Positions 3,544 through 8,070 of a stretch of 51,090 bases of DNA are shown here, piece by piece. The notes beneath the pieces were generated by a model. That model did not search any database. It was given only the letters and a program-made list of their open reading frames with translations, and was not told the origin of the DNA. Position 1 is the first letter of the stretch, and each line of letters opens with the position of its first letter. The stretch is taken from NCBI GenBank assembly GCA_002922725.1, contig PNEW01000004.1, positions 1 through 51,090 on the forward strand, given 5' to 3'. This DNA is from Verrucomicrobia bacterium Opi.OSU.00C (GTDB lineage: Bacteria > Verrucomicrobiota > Verrucomicrobiia > Opitutales > PNEW01). The position numbers were made by a program, and so were the translations under genes.

Positions 3544-4602
3544 TTACAAACTGTAAGTTTCCGGCCAATTACGTGAAGCGGCACCACGCGTGACATACAA
3601 TTTACCCAGGGTTGGCTCTGCTATGACGACGGCTGTCGTAAGTCCGATGTCACCAACATGTCGTTCGATACTGTCGGGAAAGTCGGTGAAATCACAAAAG
3701 CTGCAGTAAGCTAATTGCGCAGTCAATCGACCGTTGTTAGGTTCCAGATTCTTACGTAACATACTTTCACGCATGAGTGAATTTTCACGGGTAAACTGCC
3801 CGAAATTTTCCGTCTTTGCCAAGCGTTTATTTGAGACAACACAATTCGCATGGGTATATATTCCACGCTTGGGTTTAAGAACACCAATTCCATAGGGCGT
3901 GATTTCAATTCCCGCTATCCCACCCTTCTCATCGGCAACTGTACAGTGAGCACACAATTCAATCCGAAATTGTTTTGTAAATTCTATAACCTCTTCCACA
4001 CACGAACAATGCAGGGCAATCAATCCCCAAGCCGCATAAGGCAGGTCACCATTGGGATTATCAACGTAGAGTGCATTGCGAAAAATTGAACAACGACCTT
4101 GAATAAATCCGTGTCCAAAAAGCCACCCCGGGTAGGTAAGCGTTAATGCCGATGGTGCGTTACTCATTTTCATGCGCAGCACTTGGAATTGAAACTGTCG
4201 AAATGCATCGGTGTCTTTAGATTGACCCGAAATCGGGATGCCGTCGAGTGATGCAGTAGGTTGTATCGCAAAAGAAGTGCACGCGTTATCTTCTACGTGA
4301 CCGATTGTTCCTATCTGATTTTCATTTAAGCCCGACCCTTTTGCCATTCCGAGAAATACATCAGGAATGTGAGGTATATATTTATTTATGAATCGGTTGA
4401 ATTTTTTATTCTTCCACCACGGAATTGAATCGGGAACAATCCGACTCGCCCTAAGCTGCAAAGACTCCTGCCAGGCGTAACCGAGCATGACACCGCATTC
4501 GGATGCCGTCCCCTCGACATCAATCAACGGTACTTTACCTTGTGAGTATTCGCGATGATCTTTGATCTTACCCATATCACTATTTGAAAACATCTTCTCC
4601 AT
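3544..4602 (-). CDS. C45-family (acyl-CoA:6-aminopenicillanate acyltransferase-like) Ntn hydrolase
   Basis: The protein resembles peptidase family C45, N-terminal-nucleophile enzymes that cut themselves before a cysteine and then hydrolyse or transfer amide-linked acyl groups. The probable nucleophile is C108 in DNACTSFAI, followed by the G-x-x-I-S-G-Q-S-K-D-T segment that matches the family's G-Q-N-x-D pattern. About 107 residues would be released as the small chain. I see no signal peptide, so it should be cytoplasmic. The longest start overlaps the sialidase stop by 23 bases; ATGs at codons 4 and 10 are alternatives, the latter just past the sialidase stop. It is last in the aldolase-shell-sialidase operon, which suggests deacylation of a sugar or amino-sugar amide (inference). 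G+C is higher than in the sialidase. Confidence 0.75.
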   Translation of the reverse strand: MEKMFSNSDMGKIKDHREYSQGKVPLIDVEGTASECGVMLGYAWQESLQLRASRIVPDSIPWWKNKKFNRFINKYIPHIPDVFLGMAKGSGLNENQIGTIGHVEDNACTSFAIQPTASLDGIPISGQSKDTDAFRQFQFQVLRMKMSNAPSALTLTYPGWLFGHGFIQGRCSIFRNALYVDNPNGDLPYAAWGLIALHCSCVEEVIEFTKQFRIELCAHCTVADEKGGIAGIEITPYGIGVLKPKRGIYTHANCVVSNKRLAKTENFGQFTRENSLMRESMLRKNLEPNNGRLTAQLAYCSFCDFTDFPDSIERHVGDIGLTTAVVIAEPTLGKLYVTRGAASRNWPETYSL

Positions 4603-5656
4603 CCGTCAACCAGGATAAATCAAAACTGGTTAAAGTAATTTTCTCGTAAGGGTGAGCCTTTCCACATTCATGAAAACAGGCAATTTCACCCTCAGGTAAA
4701 ACTGCTAGATCGGAATAGGCAGAAGGGCCTTCATGGATCAATTTTGATATCACCCAAGATTCACCCTCGTCATAGCTGAGCCTGATCGTCATCTTTGCCC
4801 GATCCGTTGTGCTGGCTGGATTACTAAAAAGTATCCTATCTCTATCTTGGTGAGTAGCATTGGTATAACGAATTATACTTCCCTGGCAAATCGGCTCAAT
4901 AAGGGTTAAATCCCTTTTCAAAGGACCCCAAGTTAAACCACCATCATTACTGATAGAAACGACACGTGTATTTTTGCTTCGATCGAAATTACGCATATTG
5001 AGCATGATACTACCGTTCGCAAGTTCCACCGCCTGACATTCATTCACTTGATCAAAAGGTGTCCTTCCGCCCAATTTCCAAGATAGGCCATGATCGTCTG
5101 AATAAATCACATGGGAATAGTATTTCAAAGTATCAGCCTCTATATGGTCGCAGGGTATTATAAGACGATCTTTATATTCTCCCTTATGAATTTGGATTCC
5201 TTTACATGGTCCAGTGGCATACCAAGTCCACTCAGGTTTCTTAACAGTCGTGGTTATCTCTTTTGGCATTTCCCAAGTCAATCCATCATCATGGGATGAG
5301 GTTACAAATACTCGACGAGTATCATCGCTTATTTGGGTTATGATCTCATTCTCATAATCAGTTCCAAGGTTCCAGGTCATTAACAACCAAATTACCCCTG
5401 TCTCTTTATCTAAAACTGGACAAGGATTACCACACACATTCGCAGTATCGTTCCATATTACCTGTTGTTTACCCCAGGATTTACCACCATCTTCAGAACG
5501 TCTAACAAGCATATCAATATCCCCAGTATCACCTCTACCTGTCTTACGTCCCTCACAGAACGCCAAAACTGTTCCTTTTTTAGATAAAACCAACGCGGGG
5601 ATTCGATAGGTATGATAACCTTCACTACCACTTATATATAAATCAATCTGTTTCAT
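4580..5656 (-). CDS. Exo-alpha-sialidase (BNR/Asp-box neuraminidase family)
   Basis: Sialidases remove terminal sialic (nonulosonic) acids from glycans. The sequence has the YRIP arginine motif at the N-terminus and five Asp boxes of the S-x-D-x-G-x-[ST]-W type (SEDGGKSW, SHDDGLTW, SDDHGLSW, SNDGGLTW, SYDEGESW), one per blade of the six-bladed propeller. The acid/base aspartate region (GRGDTGDID), a central glutamate in NECQAVE and the late tyrosine in SAYSDLAVL are where the family's catalytic residues fall. At 358 residues it is a bare catalytic domain. No signal peptide is visible, unlike secreted scavenging sialidases, so an intracellular substrate is likely. It lies 184 bases downstream of the shell-protein gene, same strand. 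Confidence 0.85.
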   Translation of the reverse strand: MKQIDLYISGSEGYHTYRIPALVLSKKGTVLAFCEGRKTGRGDTGDIDMLVRRSEDGGKSWGKQQVIWNDTANVCGNPCPVLDKETGVIWLLMTWNLGTDYENEIITQISDDTRRVFVTSSHDDGLTWEMPKEITTTVKKPEWTWYATGPCKGIQIHKGEYKDRLIIPCDHIEADTLKYYSHVIYSDDHGLSWKLGGRTPFDQVNECQAVELANGSIMLNMRNFDRSKNTRVVSISNDGGLTWGPLKRDLTLIEPICQGSIIRYTNATHQDRDRILFSNPASTTDRAKMTIRLSYDEGESWVISKLIHEGPSAYSDLAVLPEGEIACFHECGKAHPYEKITLTSFDLSWLTDGEDVFK

Positions 5657-5840
5657 TGTTTTGTATCTTTTTAATACGTTATTTTAAATAACCAAAGTAA
5701 AATAAATATTAAGGTAAAATATAATTAATTATAGAAGGTAGATATATCGGTAGCTTAAAGAAAAACCGTAATAACAATAAAGCCAGTAATCCGACCGTAC
5801 TATTCAACTAACAAGAATATATATACTGTGGATAAAGTAA

Positions 5841-6482
5841 TTACGTTGGAAGAAGTGAAACGAGGTCGGTATGGGGTCGAGCAATTACGTGCGATGCAAT
5901 AATTGTACCTAATTCATTAACTGCTTCTTTACCTGCGTCAACTGCCGCTGTGACTGCAGCAACGTCACCTTTAATTACCACGGTGACATAAGCAGCTCCT
6001 ATTTTCTCTTTTCCAACAAGTGTTACATTTGCAGATTTTAACATTGCATCTGTCGCTTCTAAAGCTGCGACAAGTCCTTGCGTTTCCAAGAATCCTAAGG
6101 CATGTTGGTTATTTTTCATATTTTGTTTCTGTGTTATTTTATAATCGCTTGGTAAAAATTGTTCACGTGCTCCATAAATAGGATTAATCGTATTAGGATA
6201 ATCAACCGCCTTATCAAACCCACTTGCCGGTGAAGGAATAACACTGCTAATTACTTCTACACCCAATTCATTGCCAAAATCAACTGCAGTCTGCAGTGAA
6301 GAGTTGACATCTGACACATCACCGGCAACACGTATTAATATATTTTCAAGAGCTGTAGTATCTAGCCCCAGTAGCTTAACTCCAGACTCTTTCACCATCT
6401 TATCTGCCACCACTGCGCCAATACTCCAAAAAGAAACCTCGGCAAAGCCCAAGGCAATTACCTCTTCATATGATTTTACCAT
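5841..6482 (-). CDS. Bacterial microcompartment shell protein with two BMC domains (BMC-T, trimer type)
   Basis: BMC proteins tile the icosahedral protein shell around an enzyme core. This 213-residue protein has two tandem BMC folds. Domain 1 is residues about 6-88, ending in [14 protein letters not shown]. Domain 2 is about 127-210, starting [20 protein letters not shown] and ending in [11 protein letters not shown], the classic VIxRPHxxL edge motif. Tandem BMC proteins form trimers that look like hexamers. The gene sits between the aldolase (22 bases upstream) and the sialidase, in one probable operon. No single-domain hexamer or EutN/CcmL pentamer protein is in the window, so the rest of the shell must be encoded elsewhere if a closed shell forms. 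Domain assignment is secure; the cargo is inferred. Confidence 0.92.
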
Positions 6483-6504
6483 AGTAAAATTACTTTAAAC
6501 CAAA

Positions 6505-7557
6505 TTATATTTTACCAAGATTGCGTAATACTTCATCTACAATTTTATCCACATCAATAACATTACGAGAAGACCCCTGTTTATCAGCTAGTGTTGTCCC
6601 TACAAAAGGCTGAACGAGGTCAGCCCTAGATTTTTGACAATTACTCGCCGCCTCCTCAAATCCACATTCCGTAAGAAGGCAAGCAACTTTTGAACGTATA
6701 TTACCCAATTCTTCTTTTTCACGTGATGAAAGCACATATCTGGAACTACCCATATTGAAACCTCTTAACTCGTATCCTATGCGAAACCCATGGGGAAAAT
6801 CGGGAGCATAAAGCATGGTATTGATGAGATCTAAAAGTTTAAACTGAATTCGTTTTGCTTCATCAAGTTCACCTGAAAGAAAACAATTGTATAGCTTCAT
6901 TACAGCTTCCGGAACAACTCCAGAAGTTGCTATTGTCCCACCATCTCCTCCCATAACAAGTGTTGGATATAGAATTTCCTCACAACCCACGAGAATACTA
7001 AATTCAGGTCGTTGGGGTTTAATTTCATTCAAGGTATTAATAAAACGAGGCATATCACGACTACTATCTTTAATTCCGATAATATTGGGGCAATCCAAAG
7101 CTAAGCGCCTAACCACTGGGACACTTATTTCATTAGAAAACTGAGGGATATTATACATGACGATCCCAATCGGAGATTTAGCAGCAATTTCCCTAAAAAG
7201 TTCCTCAATACTTTCTTGGCTAACATTGTAATAATAAGGACCAGTAACAGAAACAGCCGAACAACCATAATCCGCGTAGGTTTCACAGGCTTCCAGAATC
7301 ATTTCCACATTTGCTTCTGCACCACCTGCGAGAATAGGGACTCGTCCCTTTACCTCACTACTCATTATTGCGATTATTCTCTTACGTTCTTCAAAGCTGA
7401 GGCGAATAAATTCTCCTGAACTCCCATTGGGATAAAGCCCAGAGACTCCTTTATCAATAAGCCAATTAGTCTGTCTACGTAGTTCATTCTCATTTATTTT
7501 CCCTTCTTCGTCAAAAGGAACAATATTAGGAACAAATATACCTTCAATTTTACTCAC
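6505..7557 (-). CDS. NAL/DapA-family class I aldolase with probable microcompartment-targeting tail
   Basis: This is a TIM-barrel Schiff-base aldolase of the N-acetylneuraminate lyase / dihydrodipicolinate synthase family. Pyruvate-binding motif NGSSGEF is at 44-50, the catalytic tyrosine is Y135 in YNIPQFS (YNIP is more like N-acetylneuraminate lyase than DapA) and the Schiff-base lysine is K163 in GIKDSS. Members are usually about 290-300 residues; this one has 350. The extra C-terminus is a polar linker (about 308-332) followed by the amphipathic segment NVIDVDKIVDEVLRNLGKI at 332-350, with hydrophobic residues every three to four positions, as in microcompartment encapsulation peptides. 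The start is GTG at 7557. First gene of the probable operon. Substrate is inferred from the sialidase; keto-deoxy sugar acids are alternatives. Confidence 0.88.
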   Translation of the reverse strand: MSKIEGIFVPNIVPFDEEGKINENELRRQTNWLIDKGVSGLYPNGSSGEFIRLSFEERKRIIAIMSSEVKGRVPILAGGAEANVEMILEACETYADYGCSAVSVTGPYYYNVSQESIEELFREIAAKSPIGIVMYNIPQFSNEISVPVVRRLALDCPNIIGIKDSSRDMPRFINTLNEIKPQRPEFSILVGCEEILYPTLVMGGDGGTIATSGVVPEAVMKLYNCFLSGELDEAKRIQFKLLDLINTMLYAPDFPHGFRIGYELRGFNMGSSRYVLSSREKEELGNIRSKVACLLTECGFEEAASNCQKSRADLVQPFVGTTLADKQGSSRNVIDVDKIVDEVLRNLGKI

Positions 7558-7756: not shown

Positions 7757-7999
7757 CTAATCAGTTAATTCGTAACGATAATCCTCGATAATCGGATTAC
7801 TCAATAAGTCATAGCAGAGCTTATCAATTGAAGCTCGAAAACTAGGACTATCATCACCTTGGATTTCAAATTCTATGGTTTTTCCCACACGAACATTTTT
7901 CGCCTGCACATACCCAAGACTTTTCATTGCCTGCCCGACTGCAGTCCCTTGAGGATCAAGAACATTCTTTTTAGGTATAACGTAAACGATGACTTTCAC
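7757..7999 (-). CDS. purS: Phosphoribosylformylglycinamidine synthase subunit PurS
   Basis: PurS is the small dimeric subunit that bridges PurQ and PurL in the fourth step of purine synthesis. The 80-residue length and the sequence fit the family: KVIVYVIPKKNVLDPQGTAV at the start, then the G-Y..V-x-x-V-R-V-G-K core and the C-x-x-L-L-x-N-P-x-I-E-D-Y ending. It lies 71 bases after ftsZ on the same strand and may be read through from the division cluster. The usual partners purQ, purL and purC are not next to it; the following gene begins the microcompartment locus. Confidence 0.88.
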   Translation of the reverse strand: MKVIVYVIPKKNVLDPQGTAVGQAMKSLGYVQAKNVRVGKTIEFEIQGDDSPSFRASIDKLCYDLLSNPIIEDYRYELTD

Positions 8000-8070
8000 T
8001 CAGTTTAATTTAGATGTGGAAATTAAAAGATTTCAATGAAAATGAGTGAAAAAATGTTAACCATAATATA

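Follow-up and report, generated by a model that had tools for sequence, protein, structure and literature searches.

The aldolase gene considered here lies in a 51,090-nucleotide stretch (the window), which is contig C4 (PNEW01000004.1) of the draft genome G000 of Verrucomicrobia bacterium Opi.OSU.00C (2.05 Mb, 82.6% complete). It occupies 6505..7557 on the minus strand and encodes, from a GTG start, a class I aldolase of 350 amino acids (aa) that belongs to the dihydrodipicolinate synthase/N-acetylneuraminate lyase (DHDPS/NAL) superfamily (NALd; PF00701, 188.6 bits). About 20 bases past its stop codon starts the gene of a shell protein of bacterial microcompartments (BMC) at 5841..6482 on the same strand, a chain of 213 aa whose two PF00936 domains make it a tandem-domain BMC-T. 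We propose that the two genes form a satellite module of a microcompartment encoded elsewhere in the genome, and that the aldolase would be carried into this shell by a C-terminal helix. An earlier note had described these two genes on one minus-strand run with a sialidase-fold and a C45 gene, and the open reading frame (ORF) coordinates and Pfam and NCBIfam matches confirm all four.

The AlphaFold2 model of the aldolase (mean pLDDT 92.2), based on a 57-row alignment in which K163, Y135, G48 and E49 are invariant, shows a confident barrel with its core ending near residue 306. A variable linker of low model confidence follows at about residues 308-331 (6565..6636, minus strand; pLDDT below 50 at 325-329), and the chain ends in a helix at residues 336-348. 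This agrees with the extra C-terminal helix that had been placed at residues 332-350 (6508..6564, minus strand) and that resembles an encapsulation peptide both in the model and in the tail profile described below. The BMC-T model matched BMC chains in Foldseek, the relative pose of its two domains being uncertain (pTM 0.67). Its best match was the synthetic Haliangium ochraceum shell 6ner, while PduT and other tandem BMC chains superposed poorly across both domains.

Relatives of the aldolase were collected in one scan of a species-genome collection, which gave at least 79 loci; the window and four further stretches were added. The scan patterns came from the core of an alignment, three of whose four members carry the tail. 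Among the 85 sequences scanned (the window, L009, L070-L073 and L091-L169), 77 contained the aldolase at E <= 1e-40. Removal of the duplicates L141, L117 and L131 (of L072, L071 and L070) left 74 loci, with the near-copies L125/L128 and L143/L144 kept; the aldolase tree and the structure alignment each cover 57 of them. By its leave-one-out profile score the tail is present in 62 of the 74 non-redundant loci. The call required a score of at least 8, and no values fell between 3.4 and 11.3. Scored with a profile of 54 relatives' tails from which the window was excluded, the window tail reached 27.9 bits compared to at most 7.6 for the ends of 25 DHDPS paralogues. These paralogues stem from DHDPS loci of relatives outside the family (L045-L069), and neither a BMC ORF nor a tail was found in any of the 25 loci of 2.4-3.9 kb each. 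The aldolase thus combines the sequence and structure features expected of an encapsulation peptide: a terminal amphipathic helix, a variable linker in front of it and absence from paralogues.

Aldehyde dehydrogenases (AldDH), PduL phosphotransacylases and class II aldolases of BMCs carry terminal tags. The tail profile, again of 54 tails but with both the window and the target loci excluded, was run on 697 ORFs from eight stretches that hold genes of the Planctomycetes-Verrucomicrobia type of microcompartment (PVM). HMMER E-values were non-significant for everything except aldolases (best other 2.8), and a pooled rank test was used for this reason. Nineteen PVM cargo proteins (AldDH, PduL and class II aldolase) outranked the 675 other ORFs (Mann-Whitney p = 2.9e-12) and also the 135 other ORFs of at least 200 aa (p = 7.5e-8). 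Of the 19 cargo proteins, 17 had their best site in the terminal 45 residues, compared to 38 of these 135. AldDH was recognised in six of the eight stretches, and in all six the tail-like site starts at residues 5-11. Judged from sequence, the aldolase tail is similar to the tags at the ends of AldDH, PduL and class II aldolase of the shell; for a class II aldolase, a C-terminal tag has been reported (PMC8217296). The hydrophobic moment of the window tail is high (0.14% of shuffles reach it). It does not set apart the known tags compared, however, two of AldDH and one of PduL (0.098, 0.13 and 0.51), and we did not use it as evidence.

BMC-H, BMC-P, AldDH and phosphotransacylase genes are missing beside the aldolase, as the earlier note had stated, but they are present in the same genome. 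Contig C18 carries PduL, three BMC-H, AckA, three BMC-P, AldDH, a class II aldolase and a gene of the lactate/malate dehydrogenase (LDH/MDH) family, and hence the combination of BMC-H, BMC-P, AldDH, PduL, AckA and class II aldolase by which we recognise a PVM locus. AldDH and PduL score over their subfamily cut-offs, AckA was read from the sequence, and the class II aldolase is assigned by superfamily, no single curated aldolase model being over its cut-off. One BMC-P has a stop inside the match and the LDH/MDH gene lies in two overlapping frames; together with an interrupted dehydratase gene on contig C88, discussed below, this makes assembly errors in the draft possible. The gene content matches that published for PVM (PMC4207490, PMC8857213). 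Because C18 supplies BMC-H, BMC-P, AldDH and PduL, the window pair is probably a satellite, a term for one or more shell genes with or without enzymes, lacking BMC-P and distal to the main locus. Of the two forms proposed earlier, the satellite was therefore retained, and the simplified or minimal shell was rejected in view of the full shell encoded in the genome. The pair and the main locus are on separate contigs of the draft; even if the two nearest contig ends adjoined, about 7 kb and unrelated genes would separate them. A second DHDPS-family gene of 286 aa without a tail lies on C18 (L009:3889-4749), about 3 kb upstream of PduL on the opposite strand.

In 33 of the 74 loci a tandem BMC ORF lies directly downstream of the aldolase on the same strand, with -3 to +26 bases between the two genes in 23 of these 33. 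Three more loci (L129, L133, L151) have one elsewhere, and in L093 a tandem BMC ORF is cut by the contig end. Tailed aldolases thus do occur beside shell genes, and the proposal of a NAL/DapA-fold aldolase with a targeting helix and a tandem shell protein as its partner is supported by the 74-locus comparison and the paralogue control. The pair occurs in records titled Verrucomicrobiota (under various names), Planctomycetota and Latescibacterota. L094, L101 and L125, titled Omnitrophota, Ignavibacteriota and Hydrogenedentota, fall within the Verrucomicrobiota part of the tree and are possibly mis-binned. On the aldolase tree the BMC-T label is scattered yet clustered (13 changes versus 19.2 in shuffles), which indicates that BMC-T was repeatedly gained or lost. 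In two relatives the aldolase adjoins PduL, which belongs to a main locus in L091 and lies on a contig of 4.1 kb in L092. In L150 the aldolase lies downstream of a main locus with AckA, BMC-H, BMC-P, AldDH and class II aldolase.

The link to the shell also appears across the class. In a sample of 384 genomes, 23 of which have the aldolase at E <= 1e-60 and 129 BMC-P, the latter was found in 20 of the 23 aldolase genomes and in 109 of the 361 others (Fisher p = 7.6e-8); the genomes are related and kinship was not corrected for, so that this p value should not be taken as a strict probability. The three aldolase genomes without BMC-P are G021, which has no tail, G091, which is 74% complete and has PduL on the aldolase contig, and G357, in which BMC-T is adjacent. 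Nineteen of the 23 carry the tail, G178 has a short variant of it, and G021, G038 and G248 have none. BMC-T lies within 1.5 kb of the aldolase in eight of the 23.

Several observations, on encapsulation here and on the substrate further below, weigh against our interpretation. The tail is absent in L072, L073, L105, L112 and L161 and off-type in L110, and in L100, L114 and L154 it is replaced by a shorter C-terminus with the pattern MLxxxxxRxP; no judgement is possible for the remaining three of the 12 low-scoring loci (L156, L159, L160), which are broken or situated at contig ends. The tail-less G038 and G248 nevertheless have BMC-P. Furthermore, 41 of the 74 loci have no directly downstream BMC-T, although in 38 of these the contig continues for 800 bases or more. 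The lack of an adjacent BMC-T in 41 loci, together with the abundance of DHDPS-fold enzymes in these genomes, would fit an ordinary cytosolic DapA-family enzyme whose tail and neighbouring shell gene have nothing to do with targeting. Such an enzyme, however, would not explain a tail that is kept after variable linkers and absent in 25 paralogues, the strong genome-level link to BMC-P or the detection of terminal sites of PVM cargo by the tail profile, and we regard it as highly improbable. As a separate observation, the tail-less homologues in L072 and L073 (60% and 46% identity) share a different conserved cluster with an SMP-30-type lactonase, a short-chain dehydrogenase/reductase (SDR) and, by eye, a D-threonine-aldolase-like gene, which may represent a related pathway without encapsulation.

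DHDPS, YagE, human HOG aldolase and an NAL chain all superpose on the aldolase model with Z 37-39, and the fold therefore does not reveal the substrate. The aldolase scores below the cut-offs of all seven NCBIfam models that it matched, including DapA (TIGR00674, 143.5 bits, cut-off 206.15), and none of these is a curated model for L-2-keto-3-deoxyfuconate aldolase (FucH). The earlier note had suggested sialic acid. In this reading the aldolase would be a shell-confined lyase of sialic acids (nonulosonates), whose substrate would be supplied by the cytosolic sialidase encoded next to it. The latter, a BNR/sialidase-fold hydrolase of 358 aa at 4580..5656 on the minus strand (PF13088 BNR_2), begins 184 bases downstream of BMC-T, carries a YRIP motif and matches a bacterial sialidase best in the PDB (E 2.3e-54), the match to a Micromonospora sialidase spanning nearly its whole length; inspection of its start by eye revealed no signal peptide, as had been noted before. 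The aldolase also shares its fold with NAL. Yet it stays below the curated NanA cut-offs (TIGR00683, 123.6 of 382 bits; NF003164 (PRK04147), 144.1 of 281), NanE was not found in the 82.6% complete draft, and sialidase and C45 genes stand beside the aldolase in one of the 74 loci, the window itself. A sialidase homologue (E <= 1e-60) occurs in 59 of the 384 genomes, namely in seven of the 23 aldolase genomes and 52 of the 361 others (p = 0.065), and in the six aldolase genomes other than G000 it is on another contig or, in G286, more than 1 Mb away. Moreover, N-acetylmannosamine, the expected product, is not a small toxic aldehyde. Sialic acid was rejected as the leading explanation on the curated models, the NanE search, the neighbour counts and the class-wide sialidase search; we keep it as a rival and think it very unlikely.

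The sialidase-fold gene overlaps by 23 bases with that of a C45-family autoproteolytic hydrolase/acyltransferase of 352 aa (3544..4602, minus strand; NCBIfam C45_proenzyme, 93.6 bits, cut-off 85; Pfam AAT) that had no match in PADLOC. Together they (window 3544-5656) look like a separate operon and are outside the conserved module. On the other side, a small PurS-like ORF recognised by eye (~7760-8003, minus strand) lies between the module and ftsZ.

Gene neighbours of the relatives point to 6-deoxy-sugar acids as putative substrates. Within 7 kb of the aldolase, the 74 loci contain SDR (24), mandelate-racemase-type enolase (17), amidohydrolase (11), SMP-30 (8), rhaM-like (3) and GH95-like (3) genes. 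In L125 an L-fucose dehydrogenase (346 bits, cut-off 300) is followed by an amidohydrolase whose sole model is L-fucono-1,5-lactonase (107 of 400 bits), the aldolase, BMC-T, one ORF and GH95, and L133 has another L-fucose dehydrogenase over the cut-off (324 of 300 bits). L-fucono-1,5-lactonase is the best model in all eight amidohydrolases examined. L123 combines an SDR, a URO-D protein, a member of the L-fuconate-dehydratase family (PDB 2hne, E 2e-108; ENOSF1 4a35 slightly higher), the aldolase and BMC-T. The 16 kb locus L211 of G357 comprises two rhaM mutarotases, an SDR, an L-fuconate-dehydratase-family protein (2hne, E 1e-107; ENOSF1 4a35 higher), RhaT, a lactonase-type amidohydrolase, the aldolase, BMC-T and two sulfatases. 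In L071 a dehydratase (1yey, E 3e-148; 4ip4 and ENOSF1 4a35 higher) stands side by side with the aldolase. Different steps of a FucH-type pathway are represented in L123, L125, L133, L138 and L211, a partial context that the window does not share. Upstream of their aldolase, L126, L130, L132, L135 and L211 all have a family III CoA-transferase, which might activate a product acid.

We take COG0329 to be the DapA family. It is one of seven gene sets in such pathways according to the accessible part of a SAR202 study, where its step is unnamed (PMC10444878). A fucose-induced locus of Campylobacter jejuni holds a gene annotated as dapA (PMC12566272), and the study of Sizikov 2020 on microcompartment sugar use in sponge Verrucomicrobia is cited as reporting a non-phosphorylating fucose pathway there (PMC12263773).

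The remaining objections concern this substrate. Pathway enzymes are absent beside the window module, and 32 of the 74 loci have none of the five families SDR, enolase, amidohydrolase, SMP-30 and rhaM-like within 7 kb. Of the eight SDRs examined, two exceed the L-fucose dehydrogenase cut-off, two others (L106, L140) exceed only that of the broad 'glucose 1-dehydrogenase' subfamily, and four have no model over its cut-off; against a curated cut-off of 400 bits, the lactonase-like proteins reach 103-132. In G000 the L-fuconate-dehydratase homologue at the end of contig C88 (L087:1-1153) is split in two overlapping frames and stays below the threshold of E <= 1e-70, and the best-scoring matches to the L125 L-fucose dehydrogenase and to the lactonase have 32% and 30% identity. 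Class-wide co-occurrence with the dehydratase (E <= 1e-70) was tried as support for the pathway and dropped, as the link was not significant (five of 23 aldolase genomes versus 43 of 361 others, p = 0.145). In L140 a D-galactonate dehydratase exceeds the cut-off (330 of 311 bits) in a gene run that also has the 'glucose 1-dehydrogenase' SDR, and the dehydratases of L116 and L118 come closest to L-rhamnonate dehydratase without reaching its cut-off; substrates may therefore differ between clades, or several acids may be used.

An encapsulated aldolase for another 2-keto-3-deoxy acid, such as -galactonate or -gluconate, that releases pyruvate and glyceraldehyde, or one with a clade-dependent substrate, would account for L140. 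It would also suit the SMP-30 lactonases in eight of the 74 loci and the position of YagE, named a probable 2-keto-3-deoxy-galactonate aldolase, among the nearest PDB sequences and first in Foldseek. On the other hand, L-fucose dehydrogenase is the only sugar-specific dehydrogenase model passed (two of eight), several loci hold L-fuconate-dehydratase-family, rhaM, RhaT or GH95 genes, and PVM shells handle L-lactaldehyde (PMC8217296, PMC8857213). We therefore see this alternative as unlikely, if less so than sialic acid, and consider it probable that the window encodes an encapsulated 2-keto-3-deoxy-L-fuconate-type aldolase whose products within the PVM shell are L-lactaldehyde and pyruvate and which has its own BMC-T as a satellite module.

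In the proposed mechanism, the amphipathic helix would carry the aldolase into the PVM shell, where the enzyme would cleave 2-keto-3-deoxy-L-fuconate to L-lactaldehyde and pyruvate. The encapsulated AldDH, PduL and AckA, with functions known or proposed for PVM, would turn L-lactaldehyde into lactate and ATP; they can process it because the class II aldolase makes the same toxic aldehyde from sugar phosphate. A route from lactaldehyde via lactyl-CoA and lactyl phosphate to lactate has been proposed for PVM (PMC8857213). By analogy with EUT-module satellites, the BMC-T tile would probably let the acid in and pyruvate out. A tentative extension, which we find rather doubtful, is that PVM shells are dual-input organelles for a sugar phosphate and a keto-deoxy sugar acid. 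The tagged class I aldolase would yield L-lactaldehyde and pyruvate in equal amounts in the lumen, pyruvate would be the electron acceptor for the PVM LDH/MDH-family enzyme, and a closed redox cycle of AldDH and LDH would convert the acid to two lactates and one ATP. The role of LDH/MDH in PVM NAD+ recycling is so far a prediction (PMC4207490). Two results speak against the redox step: none of the three LDH/MDH proteins examined has a tail-like site, and arginine occupies their specificity position. Arginine at that position presumably favours malate dehydrogenases.

If the proposal is true, a widespread environmental microcompartment would have a second signature-enzyme chemistry, and two fucose pathways that have been treated as alternatives would become linked. 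The benefit of a shell over cytosolic, lactaldehyde-free fucose routes has been raised as a question (PMC8857213); here, a lactaldehyde-making non-phosphorylating route would itself be housed in a shell. Algal polysaccharides with fucose and rhamnose are an important carbon pool. In addition, the aldolase tail would be a natural tag to load a pyruvate aldolase into engineered shells.

Among known enzymes, NanA shares fold and superfamily with the window aldolase but differs in its curated score, which is not reached, and in the neighbours found in relatives. FucH is alike in the proposed reaction and in the pathway partners present in relatives. We know of no C-terminal tag for FucH, and the accessible parts of the literature on it do not mention a shell association. 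In the literature searched we did not find a microcompartment with a DHDPS-family aldolase, though an earlier mention may exist. PVM and satellite loci as such are already known; the class of signature enzyme appears unreported for shells. EUT-module satellites in the HO, SPU3 and SPU6 types consist of a signature enzyme and BMC-T distal to the main locus and were proposed to extend the main shell to another substrate (PMC8217296). The window module resembles them in pairing a signature enzyme with BMC-T on a contig other than that of the main locus and differs in enzyme chemistry, shell type and BMC-T, which is of the EutL type there. In PVM, the microcompartment type for L-fucose and L-rhamnose, the published signature enzyme is a sugar-phosphate aldolase of class II, whereas the window enzyme is of class I with a Schiff-base lysine and is proposed to act on an unphosphorylated keto acid; the main locus on C18 lacks BMC-T, whereas the window aldolase has its own. 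Common to both are the full PVM locus in the genome, L-lactaldehyde as the aldehyde proposed here and a tag of the same kind.

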